From: Bacilli bacterium
GTDB lineage: Bacteria; Bacillota_I; Bacilli_A; RFN20; CAG-826
Reading direction: 5' to 3'
Assembly: GCA_017450325.1 (NCBI GenBank)
Contig: JAFSVB010000080.1
Location: 1-49,406, forward strand
DNA: 49,406 nt
Position 1 is the stretch's first letter. The number at the start of each line of letters is the position of its first letter. The notes under the pieces are model-generated. The model was given only the letters and a program-made list of their open reading frames with translations. It was not told the origin of the DNA and searched no databases. The translations under genes were made by a program, and so were the position numbers. Shown piece by piece: positions 3,688-37,453 of the stretch.

Positions 3688-4944
3688 ATGGAAAGCGAAG
3701 TCTACGCGGTGATTGACATTAAGAGCTTCTATGCCTCCTGCGAGTGCGCCGCACGGGGGCTTGACCCTTTTTCAACGCCTTTGGTCGTAGCGGACAAATC
3801 GCGCAGCGTCAACAGCATCGTCATGTCCGCGACGCCCTATCTGAAGGCGCGTTACCGCATCCCAAATGTCTGTCGCATCCAAGACCTCCCCGATATCGAG
3901 GAGATGATCTACGCTACCCCGCGCATGTCCTATTACGTGGAGATGTCCGCCAACATCGTCTCCCTCTTCCTCGACTTTGTCGCCGAAGAGGACCTCCACG
4001 TTTACTCCATCGACGAGTCCTTCCTGCGCCTGACACCCTATTTAAAGATGAACGAATGCGACGCCTTTGGCTTCGTCAAGAAGATCCAAGAGGCAATTAA
4101 GGCGCGCTTTGGATTAATCGCGACGGCAGGGCTTGGCCCGAATATGTTCCTCGCAAAGGCATGCTTGGATAACGAAGGCAAAAAGAAACCGCCCTACCGC
4201 GCTTACTGGGGCTATGAAGACGTGCAAACAAAGTTATGGAAAGTCGCGCCGATTACCAAGATATGGGGCATTGCCCATGGAATCGGGTCTCACCTGCACC
4301 GTATCGGCATCCGCAGCATGGAGGCCCTTGCAAAAGCCTCTCCGGCGCTTATCGAGAAAGAATTTGGCGTCGTCGGGCTTGATTTGCAATTGCTCGCAAA
4401 CGGCATCGACCATACCGATATCACCCATAAGTATGTTCCAAAGGAGACGAGTTTTAGCCAAGGGCAAGTCCTGATGCGCGACTATATGCCCGCGGAGGCT
4501 GCCCTCGTGCTCAAAGAGATCGTCGACGAACTTTGTATCCGTCTACGCGCGGCAAACGCCCAAACGAAGGTCGTCTCGCTCTTCGTCGGATATTCCTCGA
4601 CGGGAGGCGGAGGTGGGTTGCACCATCAATGCGCCCTCAATGTCGCCGCCGATGATAACGACATCCTCAATGACCTCGTGCAGCAGCTTTACGCCCGCTA
4701 CATCGAGCCCCGTCCCATCCGTAACCTCGTCGTGAGTTTTGGGAAGCTGTCCTGTTATGACGCCCCACGCCAGCAATCCATTTTTGAGCGTGAGGAGGAA
4801 CTGCAAGAGCGCCGCTGCCTGCGCCTCGCCATGGATAAAATCAGCGAGCGTTTTGGCCGAAACGCCATCCTAAGAGCTTCCGCCCTCCTGAAACATTCCA
4901 CCATCATCGACCGTCATGGCCTCATTGGAGGGCACCGCGCATGA
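3688..4944 (+). CDS. Y-family DNA polymerase, UmuC/UvrX-like
   Basis: 418 aa from ATG 3688; an in-frame ATG at 3631 would add 19 residues. An error-prone translesion polymerase. The catalytic core is visible: YAVIDIKSFYASCECAARG with the first acidic ligand (Asp10) and the FY steric-gate region, and YSIDESF with the Asp-Glu pair at ~107-109. IATAGLGPNMFLAKA (~144-158) and the helix-hairpin-helix region IWGIAHGIGSHLHRIGI (~194-210) follow. The C-terminal little-finger part includes SFGKLSCYD. The start at 3688 is favoured because the fold begins at once and TACGAT lies 6 nt upstream. No Shine-Dalgarno is present at either candidate. A YolD-like gene follows with a 4-nt overlap, a typical Bacilli pairing for plasmid- and phage-type umuC homologues. 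Confidence 0.9.
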   Translation: MESEVYAVIDIKSFYASCECAARGLDPFSTPLVVADKSRSVNSIVMSATPYLKARYRIPNVCRIQDLPDIEEMIYATPRMSYYVEMSANIVSLFLDFVAEEDLHVYSIDESFLRLTPYLKMNECDAFGFVKKIQEAIKARFGLIATAGLGPNMFLAKACLDNEGKKKPPYRAYWGYEDVQTKLWKVAPITKIWGIAHGIGSHLHRIGIRSMEALAKASPALIEKEFGVVGLDLQLLANGIDHTDITHKYVPKETSFSQGQVLMRDYMPAEAALVLKEIVDELCIRLRAANAQTKVVSLFVGYSSTGGGGGLHHQCALNVAADDNDILNDLVQQLYARYIEPRPIRNLVVSFGKLSCYDAPRQQSIFEREEELQERRCLRLAMDKISERFGRNAILRASALLKHSTIIDRHGLIGGHRA

Positions 4945-5300
4945 AAAACGCAAATCGGGGCATGGTGAAATACGCCCCATACCAATCCTTGGTCGAACAG
5001 GCAAAAAGCCTCGCGGCGATGCGAGAGCGCAAGTCGCATGTGGAGAAACGCGTCTTGCTCGAAGACGAAGCGTACGCGATTGACGAAATACTTCGTAACT
5101 ACGACGGGGAGCTCGTGGAAGTCGTCTATTCTAAGCACGGAAGAAACCAAATACTGGAAGGGGTCATTGACCGTATCGACGCCTTTGAACGCGTTTTGTG
5201 GATCGGCGGCGAAAAGATTCCACTGAAGGATCTACAGTCCTTGAACAGAAAAACGGCGCCCGCAGAGGGGACGCCGTCATCTTATATGTGGGGCGATTAG
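4941..5300 (+). CDS. YolD-like family protein
   Basis: 119 aa. The N-terminus NRGMVKYAPYQSL resembles the RGxxKWxPF start of YolD-like proteins. These usually sit beside a UvrX/YqjW-type polymerase and are proposed partners of it, filling a role like UmuD in Gram-positive bacteria. The C-terminal half (VVYSKHGRNQILEGVIDRID, then WIGGEKIPLKDL) fits the small beta-barrel of that family. The start ATG overlaps the polymerase stop as ATGA, with GGAGGG upstream, so the two are one operon. The stop TAG shares the tetranucleotide TTAG (5297-5300) with the stop of the convergent 53-aa gene. Confidence 0.8.
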   Translation: MKNANRGMVKYAPYQSLVEQAKSLAAMRERKSHVEKRVLLEDEAYAIDEILRNYDGELVEVVYSKHGRNQILEGVIDRIDAFERVLWIGGEKIPLKDLQSLNRKTAPAEGTPSSYMWGD

Positions 5301-5458
5301 AAGCAATACGCTAGAACGGGAGCGGCATAGCCTTCGCAGATGTGGTTATTCTGAGAAAGCTGCGCATAGACACAAGCGGTATAGGTATTTTCTTCCGTGT
5401 GATCGTAATCATTCTCACGTTCGTTGAGGGCTTCTTCGTAGCCTTTGGACTGGATCAT
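5297..5458 (-). CDS. Small orphan protein (53 aa)
   Basis: 53 aa from the ATG at 5458; a longer in-frame reading to 5503 lacks a ribosome site. I do not recognise it. It is acidic and polar (KGYEEALNERENDYDHTEEN) with three cysteines in the second half (TACVYAQ, HICEGY, LAYCF) and no membrane helix. The gene is probably real: AAGGAGG lies 8 nt before the ATG, and a good sigma-A promoter with an inverted repeat lies upstream. Cysteine spacing could allow metal binding or disulfides, but no family motif supports either. Confidence 0.6.
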   Translation of the reverse strand: MIQSKGYEEALNERENDYDHTEENTYTACVYAQLSQNNHICEGYAAPVLAYCF

Positions 5459-5505
5459 GATGTCAGCCTCCTTTCCTTCTTGCCCTCGTTTTTGAGGACA
5501 CAATC

Positions 5506-5533
5506 ACTATAGGAGCGTTACAAAAAATGGCAA
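5506..5533 (-). promoter_or_regulatory. Promoter of the 53-aa gene
   Basis: Minus strand TTGCCA (5533-5528), 16-bp spacer, TATAGT (5511-5506), followed 40-50 nt later by AGGAGG and the ATG. Confidence 0.65.
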
Positions 5534-5542
5534 ATTTGTAAC
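5517..5542. promoter_or_regulatory. Perfect inverted repeat over the -35 region of the 53-aa gene
   Basis: GTTACAAA (5517-5524) and TTTGTAAC (5535-5542) with a 10-nt centre spanning the -35 box. A partial copy of the half-site, TTACAAATTT, recurs near 5560. It is a candidate repressor site; the regulator is unknown. Confidence 0.45.
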
Positions 5543-5612
5543 CCCTTTCCGAAATCGCTTACAAATTTTCGAAACGAAAAAGCGCCTATTCATCGATATA
5601 ATCTCGACAAAA

Positions 5613-5626
5613 TGTAAGCGCTTAAT
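5613..5626. promoter_or_regulatory. Catabolite-responsive-element-like sequence
   Basis: TGTAAGCGCTTAAT matches the cre consensus (TGNNARCGNWWWCA) except at the last two defined positions. It lies between the M29 peptidase stop and the 53-aa gene promoter, about 80 bp upstream of the latter. On the minus strand the AAGCGC here could also pair with GCGCTTTTT near 5575 as a weak peptidase terminator. Confidence 0.3.
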
Positions 5627-5651
5627 CGATTTTTGAAACAATTTTCAGGTC

Positions 5652-6878
5652 TTAGAAAGCCCAGTTTCCGTCCTTGAAGATCTGGATTTTCCTTCCATCT
5701 TCCGTCGTGCCGACGATGTTCAAATCGGCCGAACCGATCATAAAATCGACATGGCTCATGGACTTATTGATGCCGAAGGAATGGATTTCTTCCTCGGTGT
5801 ATTTCTCATAGTTGGGATAAAGGTTGGTAAACCCGCGGCCTAACGCTAAATGGCAGGCGGCGTTTTCATCATAGAGGGTGCTAAAGAAGAGCAGGCCCGT
5901 GTTGTTAATCGGTGAGTCAAAGGGGACCAAGGCGCATTCGCCTAGATACGCGGAGCCTTCGTCGACCTTGAGAATGGACTCGAGGGCTTCTTGGCCTTTC
6001 TCCGCATGGACTTCCACCGCTTTTCCTTCATGGAAGCGAACATAGAAGTTTTCGATGAGGACGCCCGAATAGGAAAGCGGTTTGGCCGAATAGACAATGC
6101 CTTCCGCTTCGCCACGCATCGGGGAAGTAAAGCACTCCTCGCTTGGAATGTTGGGCTGATAGTAGGCGCCACAGAGGTTCTTTTCGCCACCGCCAAGGAA
6201 TTCGACGCCAGGGATGAGCCCGACGGTGAGGTCGGTCCCATTGTTGCTGGTGTAATGAAGTTTCTTTAGTCTCAAGGAGTTGAGGTAATCGCAACGGGCT
6301 TTTAGGTCCTCATCGTGTTTGATCCAGTTCTCGATGCCATTGCCGTCGTCGGCGCGTGAGGTCTTTAGAATGGCTTCCCAAAGCTTCTCAATGGCCTTTC
6401 CTTTCGGAAGACCTGGGAATACCTTTTTCGCCCACGCGGCGGAAGGGACGCCAGCGATGCACCACTGGTAACGGTTCTCGCGTTCCTCGCGGAATGGGAA
6501 GAGCACCTTCATCTTCTCGCGGCGGACATAAGCCATCTTCTGCGGATCGATGCCCTTCATGGCATCCGGGTCATCAGATTCAAGATAAAGGAAGCACGGG
6601 AGCACCGCGTTTTTCCATTTCTCCTTCTCGATTTCATAAGCAAAGACTTCAGCAAGGGCTTCTTTCTTCGCCTTTTTGTAGGTGATGCGAGAGCATGCTT
6701 CGCTCGTCCAGTCGATCAAGACGCGTTTCGCGCCAGCGCGGTAGCATTCTTCTACCACCAAGGCGGTGAAGGGCTCAATCTCGACGTTAGCGGTAATGCA
6801 AACGGTCTGCCCCTTTTTCACGGCAAGACCAGAGCGGACGATGAGTTCCGCGTATTTTTTCAACAAACTTTTCTTCAT
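5652..6878 (-). CDS. M29-family metallo-aminopeptidase (AmpS/aminopeptidase T type)
   Basis: 408 aa from the ATG at 6878, which has AAAGG 6-10 nt upstream; a longer reading to 6980 adds a hydrophobic stretch with no ribosome site. M29 enzymes are cytosolic exopeptidases using two metal ions to release N-terminal residues. The N-terminal domain starts LLKKYAELIVRSGLAVKKGQ. The metal-binding half includes IPSEECFTSPMRGEAEG (Glu), a Glu in LGECALVPFDSP, His in ACHLALGRGF and the His/Asp pair in SMSHVDFMIGSADL, so the active site looks intact. It is transcribed alone, divergent from the membrane-protein gene starting at 6942. Confidence 0.93.
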   Translation of the reverse strand: MKKSLLKKYAELIVRSGLAVKKGQTVCITANVEIEPFTALVVEECYRAGAKRVLIDWTSEACSRITYKKAKKEALAEVFAYEIEKEKWKNAVLPCFLYLESDDPDAMKGIDPQKMAYVRREKMKVLFPFREERENRYQWCIAGVPSAAWAKKVFPGLPKGKAIEKLWEAILKTSRADDGNGIENWIKHDEDLKARCDYLNSLRLKKLHYTSNNGTDLTVGLIPGVEFLGGGEKNLCGAYYQPNIPSEECFTSPMRGEAEGIVYSAKPLSYSGVLIENFYVRFHEGKAVEVHAEKGQEALESILKVDEGSAYLGECALVPFDSPINNTGLLFFSTLYDENAACHLALGRGFTNLYPNYEKYTEEEIHSFGINKSMSHVDFMIGSADLNIVGTTEDGRKIQIFKDGNWAF

Positions 6879-6941
6879 AAGAACCTTTCTGGAATAAAAA
6901 GCCTTTATACTATAATCCACAGCGAACAGGAGGGAACTAAA

Positions 6942-7739
6942 ATGTCCGAAGCAATTCAAAAACAAAAGCAGGTAAACCAATTCTGGTTCATTTGGAACCT
7001 CGTCGAATCCATCGTCTTGTTCGCAGGAGGCGTCTTAGCCATCGTCGCAGGCATTATGACAGGCACGGAAGGGAGTAACGCCCCTACCGGCGTCGAAAAT
7101 GCCGTCGCCTATCTTGTCGCGAGCTTTGTCATCCTCGATGGCTTGCTGCGCATCGTCCTCTTTCTCGCTCGCGCGCAAAAAAACGACGAGCAGTCCCCAC
7201 TTGTAATCGCGGGCTTCGAAATCTCTCTAGGTATTCTGTTGATTCTTCTGCAAACCCATTATAGCGGGGCGGGCATCTTCGCCTATATGGTCGTCAATCT
7301 CATCGCCATCATCATGATGGTCATGGGTGCGTTACTCTTGCTCTATGCCATCTATGTTATCGCGAAGAAGATGGCGAAACTCTTCATGCCCGTCATGGAA
7401 ATCCTCTTCGCCGCGATTCTCGTGGGCGTCGGAGTCGTCATCGAGGTCCTCTATAACACCGCCTCCAGCCGCGACCAGCTCGTCCTCATCCTCATCGGCA
7501 CGGTCCTTGCTCTCGCCGCGATCGGCATGTTCGTCATCACGATCATCACGCGCGTGAAAACCAATAAGGAAGTCCGCAAGGCCGAAGACGAAGAGCGCGG
7601 CAATTATGAAGTCGTCGCTAAGCAAGGCAGCCATAGGAAACAATCCGAGCCTCAAGACGTCGTGGATGTTGAGGAGGCAAAGGACGAAGAGCCCGAAGCC
7701 CTCGATGGACCTAGGGCCATCGAACATAAGAAAAAATAG
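6942..7739 (+). CDS. Integral membrane protein with charged cytoplasmic tail, paralogue A
   Basis: 265 aa. I do not recognise a named family; it loosely resembles HdeD/DUF308-type six-helix proteins. Hydrophobic segments lie near residues 13-38, 50-75, 85-103, 105-136, 145-168 and 178-202. A ~60-residue charged tail follows (RKAEDEERG, VDVEEAKDEEPEALDG, ending HKKK). It is a clear paralogue of the protein at 8690-9475 (same length, helix order and tail style), and phoH lies between them. AGGAGGG precedes the ATG, TATAAT lies at 6911-6916, and a terminator follows at once. The pair may be envelope-stress or scaffold proteins, but nothing in sequence shows a function. Confidence 0.75.
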   Translation: MSEAIQKQKQVNQFWFIWNLVESIVLFAGGVLAIVAGIMTGTEGSNAPTGVENAVAYLVASFVILDGLLRIVLFLARAQKNDEQSPLVIAGFEISLGILLILLQTHYSGAGIFAYMVVNLIAIIMMVMGALLLLYAIYVIAKKMAKLFMPVMEILFAAILVGVGVVIEVLYNTASSRDQLVLILIGTVLALAAIGMFVITIITRVKTNKEVRKAEDEERGNYEVVAKQGSHRKQSEPQDVVDVEEAKDEEPEALDGPRAIEHKKK

Positions 7740-7740
7740 A

Positions 7741-7771
7741 AAACGGGCGCAAAACCCGTTTCTTTTTATTG
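7741..7771 (+). terminator. Intrinsic terminator between membrane protein A and phoH
   Basis: AAACGGG (7741-7747) pairs with CCCGTTT (7755-7761) around a 7-nt loop, followed by CTTTTT. It lies directly after the stop of the plus-strand gene and against the stop of the convergent phoH. Confidence 0.75.
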
Positions 7772-8560
7772 TTTTTTCGTCTGATGCTTCAGTTTGTATT
7801 CCAAGAAGCGCAGGTCGAAGTCGACGACGAAGGAGGTCCTCATCGGCCGGGTGAGTTCCACATACCCGACGAGCCCGGTCGGCTTTAGGATCTCATAGGA
7901 GATCTCAAAGGCGTTTTGCTCGGGCGTCTGTCCAGGGACGTCGATTTGGTTCGGCGAGCCGATGATGACCATCTTGCAGTTCGCGCCGATGCGTGTGACC
8001 ATGGTCTGAAGTTCATCGAGGTCCATGTTCTGCGCCTCGTCGAGCATGATGAGGCAATCATTGAAGGAACGGCCGCGCATGAATTCCGGCGCGAGCGGGA
8101 TGATGTCGCTAGGAAGTTTTTCATAGTAGGCGGATTCGTAGATCTCATCGTCTACATCCTGCGCGCCTTTGATTTTCTTGCGCAGCATCTTATGGGAGAA
8201 GTTCTGCTCCTCCTGCGGCGCATTGGCCATCAAGTGGTCGTAGTTATCCATCAATGGACCGATATAAGGGCCATATTTCTCAGCCGCGGTGCCTTTTAGA
8301 TAGCCGAGGCGATGTCCGATCTCCACCGGTTCGCGAACATAGAAGATGTTCTTGTACCGCTTCTTCGCGCCTTTGCCACGGACGAGATTCAAGCAGCCTG
8401 CAAGCGCCGCGAAAGTCTTGCCGGTTCCGGCAGAGCCTTTGCAAAAGACGACCGGCGTTCGTTCCGGGTCGTCATTGATGAGGCGTATCAGCTCGCGCTG
8501 TTCAGGGTTTTGGGTAAAGTCGATTCCGAAGAGTTTGTAGTTGGATGCGTTCGATGCCAT
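7766..8560 (-). CDS. PhoH-like ATPase
   Basis: 264 aa, a P-loop ATPase of the PhoH/RNA-helicase-like family, cytosolic and linked to RNA metabolism. Walker A is KGSAGTGKTFAAL (~41-53). Walker B and adjoining motif are CLIMLDEAQNMDLDELQTMVTRIG, followed by the sensor-like MVIIGSPNQID. The C-terminus carries GLVGYVELTRPMRTSFVVDF. There is no PIN domain, so it is the short form rather than the PIN-PhoH fusion. A good -10 (TATAAT, 8607-8602) with GAGACA 17 bp upstream lies ~42 nt before the ATG. GGAAGG is 20 nt from the start, so the ribosome site is poor. It is monocistronic, between the two membrane paralogues. Confidence 0.93.
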   Translation of the reverse strand: MASNASNYKLFGIDFTQNPEQRELIRLINDDPERTPVVFCKGSAGTGKTFAALAGCLNLVRGKGAKKRYKNIFYVREPVEIGHRLGYLKGTAAEKYGPYIGPLMDNYDHLMANAPQEEQNFSHKMLRKKIKGAQDVDDEIYESAYYEKLPSDIIPLAPEFMRGRSFNDCLIMLDEAQNMDLDELQTMVTRIGANCKMVIIGSPNQIDVPGQTPEQNAFEISYEILKPTGLVGYVELTRPMRTSFVVDFDLRFLEYKLKHQTKKQ

Positions 8561-29789: not shown

Positions 29790-30649
29790 CTTCGCGCGAG
29801 CTTAACTTCGAGGGCCCTTCCCCCATTCTCTACCTGATCGCCACACCGATCGGCAACCGCTCCGAGATGACCCCGCGCGCCTTGGAAATCCTCAAAGATA
29901 CGGACTACATCGCCGCGGAAGATACGCGCAATTCCGGCCAATTGATGGCCTATTTCGGCATTGATAAGCCTTTTATTTCCTGCCATGAGCATAACGAAGA
30001 AGAAGCGGGCACGCGCATTGTGACGCTCTTGCAGCAAGGCAAGAAGGTCTGCTATATGTCCGACGCGGGCTATCCCTGCTTGTCCGATCCAGGGCAACGC
30101 CTCGTAGCGCGTTGTTTAGACCAAGGGATAAAAGTATCGGTAACTTCCGGCCCTAGCGCCGCCATAAACGCCTTAACATGCTCTGGCCTTAGCTCAACCC
30201 ACTTCCATTTTGAAGGCTTCCTGCCTGCAAAAGAATCCGAGCGCATCGCGCGCCTTAATGCCCTTGCATCCAACGAAGACACTCTCATCTTCTATGAATC
30301 GCCCCACCGCATCTTTAAGACGCTGCTATCCATGGCGGCGACTCTTGGGGATCGCAAGGCCGTCATCGCGCGGGAGCTCACGAAATCCCACGAGGAATTC
30401 ATCCGTGGCACGCTGGCGGAACTATGCCTCCTCCCCGAGGAATCCCTTCGCGGCGAGATGGTGATTGTCATCGAGGGCGCCTCCAAAAAGAAAGCCGTCC
30501 TCTCCGATACGGAAATCGCCCTAGCGCTTCGCGAGGAATTCGATTGGGGACGGACGCCAAAAGAAGCCATTAAAAACGTCTCCGCGAATAACGGGTTGCC
30601 TAAGAATAAGGTATACGAAGTCTATTTAGAGAACTTCAAGCGCGACTAG
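29786..30649 (+). CDS. rsmI: 16S rRNA 2'-O-ribose C1402 methyltransferase
   Basis: 287 aa, a tetrapyrrole-methylase-fold SAM enzyme that modifies C1402 of 16S rRNA. Motifs: LYLIATPIGNRSEMT, DYIAAEDTRNSGQLM, VCYMSDAGYPCLSDPG, TSGPSAAINALTCSGL, FHFEGFLPAK, IFYESPHRIFKTL. It ends the dnaX operon. Its last 14 nt overlap the 3' end of the convergent yfhO homologue, and a terminator stem starts inside its final codons. Confidence 0.96.
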   Translation: MTSRELNFEGPSPILYLIATPIGNRSEMTPRALEILKDTDYIAAEDTRNSGQLMAYFGIDKPFISCHEHNEEEAGTRIVTLLQQGKKVCYMSDAGYPCLSDPGQRLVARCLDQGIKVSVTSGPSAAINALTCSGLSSTHFHFEGFLPAKESERIARLNALASNEDTLIFYESPHRIFKTLLSMAATLGDRKAVIARELTKSHEEFIRGTLAELCLLPEESLRGEMVIVIEGASKKKAVLSDTEIALALREEFDWGRTPKEAIKNVSANNGLPKNKVYEVYLENFKRD

Positions 30650-33600
30650 GATCGATCTCGGTCGCGTTTTTCTTTTTGCGGATGGCCAAAGCAAATCCTA
30701 GGGACGCATAACCGACATAGAGGACGACGCCTAATGTCCATAAGCCAACGCCTGCAAGGCCAAAGGGCGTCACGTAACGAAGCTCATAGGAAATCGTCTG
30801 CGCCTTCCCGTTTTCGTCGAGCGAGGCGGGCGCGATAAATCCGACAAGACCGCCGCTAAGCTTGAGCATCGTGCAGTCTTTCTTCTTGCCGTCTGGCATC
30901 TTCGCGGTCGCTTTCCAGCCCTTATCGAAGCCAAGCTGCGTCAATACGATGCGTTCTTGGTCATAGGCCGTCTGGAAGCGGAAAAGATTGACGCCCGTCT
31001 CGACGTTTTGCAGCGAGTCCGACTTCCTTTGCCGTTCTTCCTGCTCGATTTTTGAGCGTTCCGTGACCGTCAGGTACATGTTGCGCGTATTGACGGATGC
31101 CGCCTCCGCTTGCGAGGAGCCGTAGCAAAGAACGACGTATTTGACCAAGCCGTCCGCGTAAAGGCCATAGGTGCAGGACCCCCAGTTGTATTTATCCGCC
31201 CTCGCGGCGTTTTGGAGCAAATGGTGGTCGAAAGACAAGGCGACATTCTCTTCGACGATATGGCCTTCGTCATCTACGCGGTCGCCGATGACGTAAACCC
31301 TCGGCGCACCGACGTTGCGATTGTTATAGGACGTCGGGGCATAGAAGCGCATTTCGAGATAGCATCCGCGAGGGTCTTCGTTGAGATAAGTGCCTGTGCT
31401 GCTTCTAAAGCAGAGTTTTCCATAATCGAGCTTCATCAAGAAGTTGCCCGTCTTCTCCACCGGTCCAAGGACGTGGTGATTGAGGAAATAGCCGAGGCCT
31501 TCCGAATAATAATCCGCCCGCGTATCGCCGAAGATCTGGTCATACCATGGCTTTTCCGTCGTCGATCCTTCGGGAATATAGGAACTCCTAGTCTCATAGT
31601 ATTCGGCTTTTAGGCCGTTCCCGTCGTATAGGCGTTTAATGCCCGTGTTCGCATAAAGAAGGCTGTCGCCCGTGACATATGGGGTTTGGGCTTGGATCTG
31701 AATCGATTCGGGCAAGGTTGCGTCATCCTCCACAATTGCGCCGTGGAGCTCGGTATATTGGGCGAATTGTAGCTGGTCAAAAGAGGCGGTATCGCCATGG
31801 TTGCCGAAGAAGGAGGTCGCATAATTGCTGCCTTCTTTATGGCCGATGCGGTAGATGCGCTCTGAATCGGAAGGGATGGCAAAGCCGAGCTGTGGCAAGG
31901 AGTCCTCGCTGCGGCGATAGACGCGGTAATAATCGCGATTGGTCGTGGCTTCCGTTAACTCCTCGCAACCAAACGGAACGTTCGCGGGGAGGAAGACGGA
32001 CGAACCGTCGGGATTTTTCCAGTTGAAGTAATTATTCTCGACGACGTAATAGCGCATCCCAAGAACCGTGTCCGTCGCATAGCGCTTATGTTTGTATAAG
32101 CCTGACCAACTAGGGTTATAGAATTGTTCCTCGTCATAGGTCGTACCCGTATCACCGACGTGCTTAATGTGGTGCATCAAGGCGAAATCCTCGACGTCGA
32201 AGTTCATCAGCGAGTGGAACTGCGCCGCCCCGTTTAATCCAAGGACGTTATGGCCATAGTTATCTCCGCGGGTCGAATCCATGTGGACGCGATAAAACGA
32301 GTGGTCTCCGGACTTGATGTTGTCCGCGATTCTTTGCGACGTCTGGAGGGTTCCTTGGCCGCCCATAAAGCTATATTGATACGACCAGACGCCGTTGAAG
32401 ACATAGGAGAGGTTGCCCATGACGACCGATTCCACGGCGACGAGGCCAAACAAAGCGAATTTCGTCCACTTCTTGCGGTGCCCGATGCAAAGCAATAGGC
32501 CTTCCATGACGACGAATACCAGCTGGTAATAGAAATACCAGGCGGTCGTGACATGGTTATAGACTTCGCTCGCGGTATGGTAGGTGGTCTGCCAGTAGGT
32601 CGTCCCGTTGACGTTGTAGGTGGCGCGCGTGAATTCTTTCCCCGCGAGGGTCGCTTCGATAAAGTAGAAGGTGAAGATGGTCATCCCCAAGGCGATCACC
32701 GTCGAGGCAAAGGGAATGAACTTAGGCTCTTCCTTCCGCTGGTCGAAGGCCCAGCAGCAGTAATAGACGATCAGGGGCACCAAGACGATGAACCAGCGGC
32801 CATACCCGTTGCCCGTGAATGCGTAAAAGAAGAAATAACAGAAGTTCGTGAAGACGGCGAAGACGCCAAGAAGGACAGCGGCAAGATGGTTCCATTTCTG
32901 CAAACGGATGGAGTTCATCAAGGCCGCGAAAAACAAAATGACGCAGGGCGTGTAGCAAAATAACGAAGAAGTCCAAGCGTCGTAGCCGTTGCTTCGGGCG
33001 AGTGGGAGCTGCGTCCATCCGCCCGTTGGGAAGAAGAAGGAAATGAGGCCCATGAGCTCGCGGCCAGGGTTATCGCCGACCTCCTCGAAGACGAGGGTGA
33101 AGAGCCTACGGGCGTCGATAGCCTTGATGGCTTCGCGAATGGATTTGAAATAGGCGGCGCCGATGGAAGCGGAACGGCCGGACAGCAGCGATTCGCGAAC
33201 GGATGGAATCAGCGAGAAAGCCGAGAACATCAGCCCCATCGCAAAACCCGCGACGCCAAGGATCATGACCTTGACGTTGGTCTTGCCATCGCGCGTTTTA
33301 ATCGTCAAGAAAAAACGCCAAACCGCATAAATGACGCCGAAAATGCATAAAACGGGCACGAAGAAGAAGCAGGAAACGCCGATGCCAGCGACCCCGAGAA
33401 TCAAGAAGGTCGGCTTTTGCTCGCGGATGGTCTTTTCAATGCCCCATAAGATAAGCGGGAGCATGCCGATCGGGGTCAAATATGTCGGGAAGCCTTCAAA
33501 GAAAGTCGTAAAGCCCGAAAATGCGTAGATAAGGCCGCCGAGCCTCGCCGTCCACTCACGGATGCCCATGTATTTCAAATAGCCACGCATCATGAGCCCC

Positions 33601-34040
33601 GCAAACGTGAGCTTTGCAAAGGTCATCAAGGCGTACATCTGGGGAATCCAAGCTCTTGGGGCGAGGTAACAGATGAACATAAACGGATCCATGAGGCCGT
33701 AGTAGGACCCAGAACCGACCATGTCCGTCCCAAGGAACGTCGACGCGTCATAAAGCGGGAAATGCCCCGTTACGAAGAACGTATGCCAAGCATCCCAATA
33801 CGTGTATGCAAAGGGGATATACTGCCAAGTGTAATCCCAGTTTAGAAGCTGAGTGCCGTCGTTGGTGAAAAACGGGAAACCTGCCCAAAGCATACCGAGG
33901 AAGAAAAGGAAAATCCCATAGTAAAGCAGGCTGTCCCAGCGTAGGAGAAAGGGCAGGTGCCGACCGAGCCAATCACGGACGGGAGTCGGTTTCTTCCGTT
34001 CAGAAATCTTTGTATTTTCAACCGTTTTCTCTGCAAACAT
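30636..34040 (-). CDS. YfhO-family membrane glycosyltransferase-like protein
   Basis: 1134 aa. The family has a GT-C-like membrane core; members in Bacilli and Listeria glycosylate lipoteichoic acid or related envelope polymers. After a short cytoplasmic start, the first helix (LLYYGIFLFFLGMLWAGFPF) is followed by the loop with the acidic signature LLNWDYTWQYIPFAYTYWDA, then GLMDPFMFICYLAPRAWIPQM. About a dozen helices fill residues 35-590, a long extracytoplasmic domain runs ~600-1070, and a final helix (LAGVGLWTLGVVLYVGY) precedes a basic tail. It is 3 nt downstream of a P-II-like gene and probably the last gene of that operon. Polymer and donor are unknown. Confidence 0.9.
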   Translation of the reverse strand: MFAEKTVENTKISERKKPTPVRDWLGRHLPFLLRWDSLLYYGIFLFFLGMLWAGFPFFTNDGTQLLNWDYTWQYIPFAYTYWDAWHTFFVTGHFPLYDASTFLGTDMVGSGSYYGLMDPFMFICYLAPRAWIPQMYALMTFAKLTFAGLMMRGYLKYMGIREWTARLGGLIYAFSGFTTFFEGFPTYLTPIGMLPLILWGIEKTIREQKPTFLILGVAGIGVSCFFFVPVLCIFGVIYAVWRFFLTIKTRDGKTNVKVMILGVAGFAMGLMFSAFSLIPSVRESLLSGRSASIGAAYFKSIREAIKAIDARRLFTLVFEEVGDNPGRELMGLISFFFPTGGWTQLPLARSNGYDAWTSSLFCYTPCVILFFAALMNSIRLQKWNHLAAVLLGVFAVFTNFCYFFFYAFTGNGYGRWFIVLVPLIVYYCCWAFDQRKEEPKFIPFASTVIALGMTIFTFYFIEATLAGKEFTRATYNVNGTTYWQTTYHTASEVYNHVTTAWYFYYQLVFVVMEGLLLCIGHRKKWTKFALFGLVAVESVVMGNLSYVFNGVWSYQYSFMGGQGTLQTSQRIADNIKSGDHSFYRVHMDSTRGDNYGHNVLGLNGAAQFHSLMNFDVEDFALMHHIKHVGDTGTTYDEEQFYNPSWSGLYKHKRYATDTVLGMRYYVVENNYFNWKNPDGSSVFLPANVPFGCEELTEATTNRDYYRVYRRSEDSLPQLGFAIPSDSERIYRIGHKEGSNYATSFFGNHGDTASFDQLQFAQYTELHGAIVEDDATLPESIQIQAQTPYVTGDSLLYANTGIKRLYDGNGLKAEYYETRSSYIPEGSTTEKPWYDQIFGDTRADYYSEGLGYFLNHHVLGPVEKTGNFLMKLDYGKLCFRSSTGTYLNEDPRGCYLEMRFYAPTSYNNRNVGAPRVYVIGDRVDDEGHIVEENVALSFDHHLLQNAARADKYNWGSCTYGLYADGLVKYVVLCYGSSQAEAASVNTRNMYLTVTERSKIEQEERQRKSDSLQNVETGVNLFRFQTAYDQERIVLTQLGFDKGWKATAKMPDGKKKDCTMLKLSGGLVGFIAPASLDENGKAQTISYELRYVTPFGLAGVGLWTLGVVLYVGYASLGFALAIRKKKNATEIDPSRA
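30641..30677 (+). terminator. Terminator of the dnaX-rsmI operon, inside convergent coding ends
   Basis: CGCGAC (30641-30646) pairs with GTCGCG (30661-30666), followed by TTTTTCTTTTT. The 5' arm encodes the last two rsmI residues; the whole structure is within the C-terminal coding part of the convergent YfhO gene. Confidence 0.65.
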
Positions 34041-34043
34041 CCA

Positions 34044-34382
34044 TTATTTTCCTTGTTTTCCGTCCCCTGATGGAGCGGCGAGACCGACGACGTCACTGAC
34101 AGGAAGCGAGAAGGCGATGCCCATGCCTGCCGTGGACATACCCGCGCCTTCGTTGATGGATTCCATGACTTTATCGCGAATCGCCCGCGGAACCAAAATA
34201 AGAGCGACGTCCTTCTCGGGCGTCACGACGACGCCGAAGAATTCTTCGATTTCCTTGTTGCCCGTACCGCGCGCGGAGAAGATCGTGCCACCTGTAGCGC
34301 CTGCTCGTTTCGCGGATTCCACGACGAGGTCCGTATAGCCATGGTTCACGATACAGATAATGCATTCGTAGTTGTTATTCAT
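34044..34382 (-). CDS. P-II-like regulatory protein (second copy)
   Basis: 112 aa. The opening strand ECIICIVNHGYTDLVVESAKRAG, the segment GGTIFSARGTGNKE (T-loop-adjacent region) and VALILVPRAIRDKVMESI match the ferredoxin-like P-II/GlnB fold. The canonical uridylylated T-loop tyrosine motif is not obvious. It ends with VSDVVGLAAPSGDGKQGK. Overlapping the preceding P-II-like gene by 8 nt and following the DUF1538 membrane gene, it probably senses a nucleotide or metabolite and gates that membrane protein. Confidence 0.8.
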   Translation of the reverse strand: MNNNYECIICIVNHGYTDLVVESAKRAGATGGTIFSARGTGNKEIEEFFGVVVTPEKDVALILVPRAIRDKVMESINEGAGMSTAGMGIAFSLPVSDVVGLAAPSGDGKQGK

Positions 34383-34797
34383 GTTTCTTCCCCTTTTTCT
34401 TTGTGACGGACGTCGGCTTCTCGAACACTCTCGTATTGCTCAGCATTTTGTAAATGGAAACGCCAGCGACAGAATCCAGCGGTATCGCGTAGGCGATTCC
34501 CTTGGCCATCTTCGAAATCGCAAAGCGCTCGGCGAGCTTTTCGCGGTAGGAAGGCCAGCGGTCGGCGCGCAGGATCGAGAAGACGATTTCCTTCTTCGTC
34601 GGAGCGCGGAGATTTAGAAGCGCTTCTTTCGGAGCGGTTCCTTTGCCGTGGCAAACGAAGCAGATCGCGCACTCTTCCTCGCGGTTTAGGTTGATGATGG
34701 CCTCCGACTGATTTTCGTTCACGACCGTCGTCACGAAGAGCAACGGCCTCAAACGGTGCGTCGATTCGTAGGGCACGTAATTTTTGCTGTCACTCAT
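34375..34797 (-). CDS. P-II-like regulatory protein (first copy)
   Basis: 140 aa, more diverged than its neighbour but with the same layout: LRPLLFVTTVVNENQSEAII, CAICFVCHGKGTAPKEALL, KEIVFSILRADRWPSYREKL, GKGIAYAIPLDSVAGVSI. The last is the equivalent of GMGIAFSLPVSDVVGL in the second copy. A basic tail (KKKGKKHE) ends it. It overlaps the DUF1538 gene by 4 nt, so it is translated from the same message. Two unequal P-II copies could form a heterotrimer; that is inference. Confidence 0.75.
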   Translation of the reverse strand: MSDSKNYVPYESTHRLRPLLFVTTVVNENQSEAIINLNREEECAICFVCHGKGTAPKEALLNLRAPTKKEIVFSILRADRWPSYREKLAERFAISKMAKGIAYAIPLDSVAGVSIYKMLSNTRVFEKPTSVTKKKGKKHE

Positions 34798-36392
34798 AGC
34801 TCACCCTCCGAAAGCTTCGCGATGTCGAAATGGATAATCTGGTCATCGTTATCCTCAATGATACGCTTGCGGGCTCTAGCCAAGGCAATGCGAGATTGCA
34901 CCTTGGATTGAAGACCGAGGGCCTGGATAACGATAATCGGCATCATCGCGACGACCGCGACGAGGCCAAAGCCGTAGGAATAAACGTCCGCTCCGCAAGA
35001 AAGCGCGAAGCCGATGCAGAAAGGCAATACGAACGTCGAGGTCATTGGACCGGAAGCGACGCCGCCGGAATCAAACGCCATGGCCGTATAGATTTTCGGC
35101 ACGAGGAACGAGAGGACGAAGGCGATGATATAGCCGGGGATGATGTAATACTCTAACCCGAAGCGGAAATGGCAGCGCAGGACAGAAAGGGCGACGGCGA
35201 CGCCATTAGCAAGCGCGAGCATCGCCAAAACGTTCACTTTGCGGATGCGGCCATCGGAGACCTGCTCCATCTGTGATACCAAGACGTGGACGGCGGGCTC
35301 GGCTAAGACGCCAAAGACGCCAAATAACGCACCGATACCGACGGCAACATAATGCATGACATCGGAAGTCCCAAGCATCAATCCGACCGTTTGAGCGATG
35401 GGCAGGAAGCCCCACTCGACGGCCGCTAAGAAGAGCACAAGGCCTGCATAGGTGATGATCATGCCGATGATGATGCGAATCAAATCCTTGACGGCGATGC
35501 GGATGAAGATCAGCTCGTAAACAATGAAGAAAACCAAGATGGGCACAACCGAAAGGGCGACGGAGCCCATCGTTCCAATGCTGTCGCGCAGCAGCCCTTC
35601 CCAAATGGACGAAAGGCTGGTTGCTTCGTTTGGATAGACGGAGGGAAGCCCTTTGCCTGAGGCTTTTAGAACCAGCGAAATGATGACCACGGCGAGAATG
35701 GGTCCAATGGAGCATAACGCCGTCAAACCGAAGGAATCTTCGGAGTTCTTACCGCCGCGGTTCGCGGCCATGCCAAGGCCAAAGCCGAGCAAGAACGGCA
35801 CCGTCACTGGCCCCGTCGTCACGCCGCCGGAATCAAAGCAGATCGGCAGGAAGCGCGGGTCGATAAAATATAGAAGGGCAAAGCAGAGCCCGTAGAAAGC
35901 CAAGAACATGACGTTGAGGCTTTGATGGAGCGTCGTGCGGATGACGCCGACGACCAAAAATAAGCCAACGCCAATACCGATGGTCCAGATAATAATCTGC
36001 GGATTGATGCCGATTTGGCCGGAAAGGACGCTTAGATCCGGTTCGGCAATCGTCACGAGAACGCCGATGATGAACGTCATTACGATGACGAAAAAGAACT
36101 TGTTCTTCTTAACCAACGAGCCGCCGATGATGCGACCGATTTCGGTCATGGACTGCTCTGTTCCAAGATTGAATAGCGCCATCCCGACCACGATCATCCC
36201 CACGGCGACCGCGAAGGAGATCATTTGATCGTTGCTTAGCGCATAGATATCGCCGGCGGCATTCTGGAATTGGTCGGCAGGCAAGGCAAAGCGGGTGACA
36301 AGAAAGAAGACGACGATCACGAATGCGATCGGCGCCGCGGAGAAGAGGGATTCCCTGAGTTTATCGAGCCATTCTCTTCCGTCTGGGATCAT
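34794..36392 (-). CDS. DUF1538 membrane protein with two homologous halves
   Basis: 532 aa, polytopic, cytoplasmic membrane. Each half contains a distinctive Gly-rich motif: FDSGGVTTGPVTVPFLLGFG at ~184 and FDSGGVASGPMTSTFVLPFC at ~438. This indicates an internal duplication of the DUF1538 unit, a common origin for transporters with inverted or tandem repeats. The half motifs TEQSMTEIGRIIG and EPAVHVLVSQMEQVSDG also correspond (compare ITIAEPDLSVLSGQIG). The C-terminal ~35 residues are charged (ARKRIIEDNDDQIIHFDI). DUF1538 proteins are known to occur beside P-II-like genes, as here. Substrate unknown. Confidence 0.88.
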   Translation of the reverse strand: MIPDGREWLDKLRESLFSAAPIAFVIVVFFLVTRFALPADQFQNAAGDIYALSNDQMISFAVAVGMIVVGMALFNLGTEQSMTEIGRIIGGSLVKKNKFFFVIVMTFIIGVLVTIAEPDLSVLSGQIGINPQIIIWTIGIGVGLFLVVGVIRTTLHQSLNVMFLAFYGLCFALLYFIDPRFLPICFDSGGVTTGPVTVPFLLGFGLGMAANRGGKNSEDSFGLTALCSIGPILAVVIISLVLKASGKGLPSVYPNEATSLSSIWEGLLRDSIGTMGSVALSVVPILVFFIVYELIFIRIAVKDLIRIIIGMIITYAGLVLFLAAVEWGFLPIAQTVGLMLGTSDVMHYVAVGIGALFGVFGVLAEPAVHVLVSQMEQVSDGRIRKVNVLAMLALANGVAVALSVLRCHFRFGLEYYIIPGYIIAFVLSFLVPKIYTAMAFDSGGVASGPMTSTFVLPFCIGFALSCGADVYSYGFGLVAVVAMMPIIVIQALGLQSKVQSRIALARARKRIIEDNDDQIIHFDIAKLSEGEL

Positions 36393-37453
36393 CGATGCCC
36401 TCCTTTCCTGGGTTTGCTGCCGGTTCTAACGTTCCGCTTTTTGGCTATTCTAGACCCTTCTTCCTCTTTGAGGAATGGCTTGCGGGATTTCGAAGCGCTT
36501 TCTTTTGCTTCTTCTCTTTTTTGGGCATGGGTCTTGAAGAAAAGCGATTTGAAAGAATCGGGCATCGGGGTGATGAAATCGTACCGCTTGCCGCTAAGAG
36601 GGTTCGTAAAGGTCAGCTGATAGGCATGGAGCCCAAGGCGCTTCAGGGGGTCGGCGGGTTCACCGTATTTATCGTCGCCGATAACATGATGGCCGCGCGA
36701 ACCGAGTTGGACGCGAATCTGGTTCTTTCGCCCTGAGGAGATATGGACATCTAGCAGCGAATAGGGCTCCTTGTAGGAGATGACTTTATAGGCCGTCGTG
36801 GAGAGCTTTCCCTCTTTTTTGTTTTTCGTTACGAAAACCAAATGAAGCTCGTTTTGCATCAAATAATCCTGCAAAACCGCCTCATCTTGTTCCATTTTCC
36901 CTTCGACAATCGCGTAATAGGCACGGGTTTCCACCGCTTCTTGCCAATGGTTTTGAAGAGCTTCGCGCACCTCGTATTTCTTCGCGAATACCAAGACGCC
37001 AGAAGTGTCTTCGTCTAAACGATGGACGACGTAGATGCGCGCTTTGGGGTTGAAGGAAGCGACATAATCGGAAATCAGTCGATAAGCCGTCTTTCCCTTT
37101 TCACGCTCGGTGGCGACGGAAAGCAGACCAGAAGGCTTGTTGATCGCGATGATGTCCTCGTCCTCATAGAGAATGGGCAAATCTTTCCGCTCGTGCTTGG
37201 CGATGCGGTTTTTAGAAACGGTGACGACGTCTTCGGGCACGAGGGGATAGTTGTATTGGGAAACGGGCACGCCGCCGACGGCGACTTGATGATGGGTGAG
37301 CAAAGACTTGATGGTCTTGCGGGGAGTGTCCGGCATCTTGAACATCAAAAACTCCATCAAGGTCGTCTCGCGGTATACCTCGAATTCCTTGATGCTGCGC
37401 GGATCGACGAGCCCCTTGTTCGGCGATGTTTTCTTTTTGTCGTTCTTATTCAT
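36389..37453 (-). CDS. RluA-family 23S rRNA pseudouridine synthase
   Basis: 354 aa. An N-terminal S4-like segment (FKMPDTPRKTIKSLLTHHQVAVGG) precedes the catalytic domain. DEDIIAINKPSGLLSVATE and YVVHRLDEDTSGVLVFAKK contain the catalytic Asp of the HRLDxxTSG motif; RKNQIRVQLGSRGHHVIGDDKYG is also conserved. The last ~45 residues are a Lys/Arg-rich tail (KREEAKESASKSRKP, RKGGHR). It overlaps the patatin gene by 8 nt and the DUF1538 gene by 4 nt. The exact RNA site is not deducible. Confidence 0.93.
   Translation of the reverse strand: MNKNDKKKTSPNKGLVDPRSIKEFEVYRETTLMEFLMFKMPDTPRKTIKSLLTHHQVAVGGVPVSQYNYPLVPEDVVTVSKNRIAKHERKDLPILYEDEDIIAINKPSGLLSVATEREKGKTAYRLISDYVASFNPKARIYVVHRLDEDTSGVLVFAKKYEVREALQNHWQEAVETRAYYAIVEGKMEQDEAVLQDYLMQNELHLVFVTKNKKEGKLSTTAYKVISYKEPYSLLDVHISSGRKNQIRVQLGSRGHHVIGDDKYGEPADPLKRLGLHAYQLTFTNPLSGKRYDFITPMPDSFKSLFFKTHAQKREEAKESASKSRKPFLKEEEGSRIAKKRNVRTGSKPRKGGHR

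Follow-up and report, generated by a model that had tools for sequence, protein, structure and literature searches.

What a pair of small P-II-like proteins might do beside a membrane protein of the DUF1538 family is the question posed by a compact locus of a Bacilli bacterium, which lies in the window considered here, i.e., the whole stretch of 49,406 nucleotides that was analyzed. The original prediction took the pair to gate a transporter, and docking of P-II proteins on transporters from the cytosol is established for GlnK-AmtB and SbtB-SbtA (PMC8352866).

Gene organization of the locus

Open reading frames and Pfam matches give the minus-strand order RluD-type protein, DUF1538 protein, P-II-like protein A, P-II-like protein B, and YfhO-type protein (Table 1). 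The double-DUF1538 protein and the two unequal P-II-like proteins are hence present as had been predicted from the sequence, as are the twin motifs FDSGGVTTGP and FDSGGVASGP, both in the DUF1538 protein. The rluD-like and DUF1538 genes overlap by 4 nt, those for the DUF1538 protein and A by 4 nt (ATGA), and those for A and B by 8 nt; yfhO starts 3 nt past the end of B, and purine-rich stretches lie ahead of the starts in the overlapping run. The genes had been called translationally coupled, which holds as a description of these overlapping stops and starts but not as an experimental fact. Among loci from the same taxonomic order as the window, the triad is constant and the flanking genes change: the RluD-type flank changes beyond the near relatives, and a large open reading frame at the YfhO position is found in near relatives only.

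Table 1. Coordinates of genes and protein motifs of the DUF1538/P-II locus in the window
Feature	Position	Strand	Basis or remark
RluD-type pseudouridine synthase	36389..37453	-	PF00849; upstream neighbor in overlapping gene run, outside the conserved system
Double-DUF1538 membrane protein (532 aa; single chain with two UmpA/UmpB-like halves)	34794..36392	-	PF07556 x2
E117-P118, repeat 1 helix break	36039..36044	-	Invariant in 109 sequences; model helices stop at 115 and resume at 118
FDSGGVTTGPVTVPF motif of repeat 1 with invariant D187, at a helix break	35793..35837	-	Alignment and model
E365-P366, repeat 2 helix break, invariant	35295..35300	-	Alignment and model
FDSGGVASGPMTSTF motif of repeat 2 with invariant D441, at a helix break	35031..35075	-	Alignment and model
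DDQIIHF C-terminal tail motif, candidate docking peptide	34827..34847	-	Tail motif counts
Diverged P-II-like protein A (140 aa) with the motifs GKGTA and KGIAY	34375..34797	-	Profile kinship to B
P-II-like protein B, 112 aa, shortened T-loop	34044..34382	-	PF00543
YfhO-type membrane protein	30636..34040	-	PF09586; downstream neighbor, outside the conserved system

The DUF1538 protein is a distant relative of UmpAB

The membrane protein passes the Pfam DUF1538 profile (PF07556) with two copies and 358 bits (E 1.6e-107; Pfam cut-off 22.6). It also matches the NCBIfam profiles for UmpA (NF041627; 116 bits) and UmpB (NF041628; 112 bits), yet the equivalog cut-offs for these lie much higher, at 490 and 500, and it is hence a relative rather than an established member of UmpAB. 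UmpAB of Halomonas zhaodongensis, the sole characterized DUF1538 system, consists of two paired DUF1538 proteins that, coexpressed in Escherichia coli KNabc, act as an Na+(Li+,K+)/H+ antiporter (PMC5484666). The substrate of the system had originally been considered unknown; given this activity the family is no blank, even though the window protein is only distantly related to UmpAB, a distance because of which antiport in the window protein is something we infer. As in the window protein, two homologous halves work together in UmpAB, but these are two separate proteins that were characterized without a P-II partner.

Across 109 DUF1538 homologs, E117, D187, E365, and D441 are invariant, with one glutamate and one aspartate in each repeat. 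In an AlphaFold2 model (pLDDT 92.8, pTM 0.91), for which three rows from plasmid records were left out of the alignment, the helices break at or adjoining all four residues. Such predicted helix breaks at invariant acidic positions are as would be expected of intramembrane ion sites. No kinship to a known transporter fold emerged: a Foldseek search of the model against the PDB and viral models recovered no match (best E 0.025, TM <0.25), and neither single-sequence nor profile searches found a PDB chain akin to DUF1538.

Many DUF1538 proteins of Bacillota also carry an acidic C-terminal tail with a DDQIIHF-like motif, which occurs in 36/41 loci with split and 69/104 with fused P-II genes (shuffled means of 5.8 and 9.4, respectively) and is absent from the tails of loci with three-domain P-II chains (0/11). 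As this pattern was defined after the tails had been inspected, we treat it as a lead.

Proteins A and B belong to the P-II superfamily

Protein B passes the P-II profile PF00543 (37.8 bits, E 2.5e-9; cut-off 25), and protein A matches no Pfam profile, PF00543 included. A comparison of the family profile of A with that of B by hhalign linked the two at 99.6% (E 2e-24). Further, the model of an A-B fusion found in a relative of the same genus (L063) has two ferredoxin-like domains (pLDDT 85.9, pTM 0.82), whose order of strands and helices fits the beta-alpha-beta-beta-alpha-beta P-II fold and whose closest solved folds are GlnK-type P-II structures. By this profile kinship and the predicted fold of the fused homolog, protein A is placed in the P-II superfamily despite the Pfam miss.

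P-II-like domains constantly accompany DUF1538

Loci were collected with DUF1538 as the only search key, i.e., without regard to P-II, from relatives of the window genome, named genomes (80 loci, mostly Clostridia), plasmid records, spirochaetes (48 of 198 genomes above the family cut-off), and other Bacillota (58 of 295 genomes). The 186 loci, one of which was entered twice (L129 is L189), comprise 181 with a P-II-like neighbor and five that end at a contig edge. P-II-like domains thus directly adjoin DUF1538 in 181/181 intact loci having downstream DNA, and a recurrence of the same order in all of these indicates that the arrangement is not due to chance. The linkage spans Bacillota, Spirochaetota, and Alphaproteobacteria; in the last, two plasmids carry separate umpA and umpB genes (the first gene being annotated short in one plasmid) with one P-II gene. 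Co-encoding of P-II with DUF1538 is hence general and not specific to the window. The neighborhoods in other genomes, to which the original prediction had pointed for hints of a substrate, yielded P-II-like domains as the constant companion and no other conserved neighbor. None of the collected loci has a natural DUF1538-P-II fusion. Public annotation of the plasmid neighbors already reads "P-II family nitrogen regulator"; P-II is absent from the text of the UmpAB paper (PMC5484666), and a full-text literature search, in which subscription journals were sparsely covered, turned up five papers that name DUF1538 and no description of the link.

Split, tandem, and triple P-II arrangements

The P-II-like domains beside DUF1538 occur as a single gene, a split A/B pair, a tandem fusion, or a three-domain single chain. 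Separate umpA and umpB genes are accompanied by one P-II gene (L147, L148, and L152), and fused DUF1538 proteins either by a pair of separate A and B genes or by a single tandem A-B chain (about 230 aa). In 14 spirochaete loci (L165 to L178), DUF1538 proteins of about 550 to 750 aa adjoin a 364- to 392-aa P-II chain, each third of which matches the P-II-B profile (E 6e-17 to 8e-20). The number of P-II domains thus goes with the type of DUF1538 system, apart from L193, which has separate umpA and umpB genes with two P-II genes. In the spirochaete branch, the DUF1538 halves resemble UmpA (first half) and UmpB (second half), and the protein of L178 scores 217 and 185 bits against UmpA and UmpB, respectively, i.e., nearer than the window protein.

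On a DUF1538 tree built with FastTree, in which long branches were flagged, the triple type forms one clade, and at least nine changes between the split and fused states are required, or at least six if well-supported branches alone are counted. Since these states interchange repeatedly, A and B are probably parts of a single assembly, and their repeated fusion and fission suggests that they act together.

The long DUF1538 proteins of L165 to L178 have an extra stretch of up to about 200 aa between or inside the halves. Three separate P-II-like genes follow one DUF1538 gene in a row in L204 (positions 5475-6452), and in L162 (positions 4386-8184) one tandem P-II gene is flanked by two double-DUF1538 genes, all on the same strand.

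Genomic context

By Pfam, the window genome encodes no further P-II protein, and it has no Amt; on these grounds, the classic nitrogen role known from GlnK-AmtB was ruled out. It also encodes two CPA-type exchangers and no PF03553 antiporter, and with the former present the DUF1538 protein is not the genome's sole candidate cation/proton exchanger. The single diadenylate cyclase in the genome is uninformative as to cyclic di-AMP as a ligand, since 11 of 14 control genomes also have this family; cyclic di-AMP may be considered a possible ligand of A/B.

A proposed role for the P-II-like pair

Taking these findings together, we propose, with somewhat better than even confidence, that the locus encodes a fused, UmpAB-related cation/proton antiporter and a P-II-like control unit dedicated to it. 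The DUF1538 protein would be a fused monovalent cation/proton antiporter of the UmpAB type, an activity predicted from its distant characterized relative. A and B, which relatives possess as one tandem chain, would form one hetero-oligomer docked at the cytoplasmic side of the antiporter, with the conserved C-terminal tail of the latter probably serving as part of the docking site. This unit would bind a small ligand from within the cell, with an adenine nucleotide or a related messenger as the likeliest candidate and the classic pair of ATP and 2-oxoglutarate less likely; ligand binding would alter docking and thereby switch cation/proton exchange up or down.

A more far-reaching version of this proposal is rather doubtful. 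Here, DUF1538 would be a transporter fold without solved relatives, the regulator of which diversified from a single P-II gene to unequal pairs, tandems, and, in spirochaetes, a three-domain chain that amounts to a hard-wired pseudo-trimer whose three sites differ; a noncanonical ligand would couple the energy or messenger state of the cell to cation/proton exchange.

Alternative roles

An unlikely alternative reverses the direction of signaling: the DUF1538 protein would be a sensor that holds or releases A/B by ion or pH state, and A/B would be a messenger to other cytosolic targets. P-II proteins generally have several targets. Moreover, four genomes that are at least 96% complete (L213, L214, L215, and L216) have A and B side by side near an rluD-like gene and no DUF1538 match. 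Between L214 and L215, the only pair compared, A has a dN/dS of 0.039 and B one of 0.005, i.e., both are under strong purifying selection without DUF1538, so the pair has another use, at least there, for which it would need another target. Hence, gating of DUF1538 is not the only job open to the pair. Against a messenger role, linkage to DUF1538 is otherwise constant, with no other conserved neighbor seen, and the genes were lost together in G428, where a 105-aa DUF1538 remnant (L218, positions 4857-5174) persists and both P-II genes are gone.

The genes that follow the remnant in L218 are similar in size and order to those behind the intact triad of L219. In L217 (positions 5475-5876), a lone 133-aa P-II-B-like protein has a PAP2-like phosphatase on one side and, on the other, an apparent two-gene ABC system resembling FetA/FetB (neighbors named by eye).

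Still less probable is that the P-II-like domains serve the transporter as permanent structural subunits that have lost the ligand site and sense nothing. A profile alignment of B domains has I, V, L, or M at the K90 position in 96% and G at the R101 position in 83%. Compared with canonical P-II proteins, some five residues are missing from the T-loop and Q39 and Y51 are lost; protein A is poorly conserved. The canonical ATP/2-oxoglutarate site is hence not retained as such. However, the strand that borders the ligand cleft is strikingly kept in B, where G31, T33, R/K38-G39, and E56-K57 are nearly invariant, and the survival of A/B without DUF1538 likewise argues against a purely structural part. 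An equivalence of K57 in B with the canonical K58 was dropped, as the register of the alignment is ambiguous.

The least probable reading, in which the pair gates the membrane protein for a substrate other than Na+ or K+, would agree with just one distant DUF1538 pair having been assayed, with scores far under the UmpAB cut-offs, and with the lack of a solved fold match to the model, but both the UmpA and UmpB profiles match the window protein, the acidic helix breaks follow an invariant pattern in each half, and DUF1538 is among the features used to predict growth pH, beside the Mrp and K+ transporter families (PMC13255231).

An antiporter with a dedicated P-II-like control unit is favored as the best explanation by the constant adjacency, the match in copy number, the repeated fusion of A and B, the acidic helix breaks, the activity of UmpAB, the joint loss in G428, and the lack of both Amt and any other Pfam-detectable P-II protein in the genome. 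It is weakened by the persistence of A/B without DUF1538 in four genomes, the distance of UmpAB, the altered P-II ligand residues, the lack of a DUF1538-P-II fusion, the two CPA-type exchangers, and the closer kinship of the triple-P-II branch to UmpAB.

Relationship to known P-II systems and implications

The P-II-like pair with DUF1538 is a further variant of the P-II/transporter theme. In the case of the bicarbonate transporter SbtA, the gene of the P-II-like SbtB also adjoins that of the transporter, and SbtB docks on its cytoplasmic face (PMC8352866), as is proposed for A/B; however, SbtB is a single gene product that forms a homotrimer, serves a different transporter, and has an extended T-loop, whereas that of the window is shortened. 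GlnK is likewise co-encoded with its transporter, AmtB, and GlnK-type folds are nearest to the fused A-B homolog, but the window genome lacks Amt and its P-II-like proteins lack equivalents of Y51, K90, and R101; further, GlnK is one domain, whereas the P-II-like proteins linked to DUF1538 can combine two or three different domains. NifI1 and NifI2 are two unequal adjacent P-II genes that act as one hetero-oligomer; they resemble A/B as such a pair and differ in regulating nitrogenase, not a transporter.

Detailed knowledge of how P-II proteins control transporters is limited to a few systems. If our proposal is true, there would be a widespread P-II system acting on a cation/proton antiporter family, and ion and pH homeostasis would be tied to P-II signaling in many gut bacteria and spirochaetes. 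The natural two- and three-domain P-II chains would allow subunit positions to be dissected singly, and the function of the unsolved DUF1538 membrane fold becomes testable.
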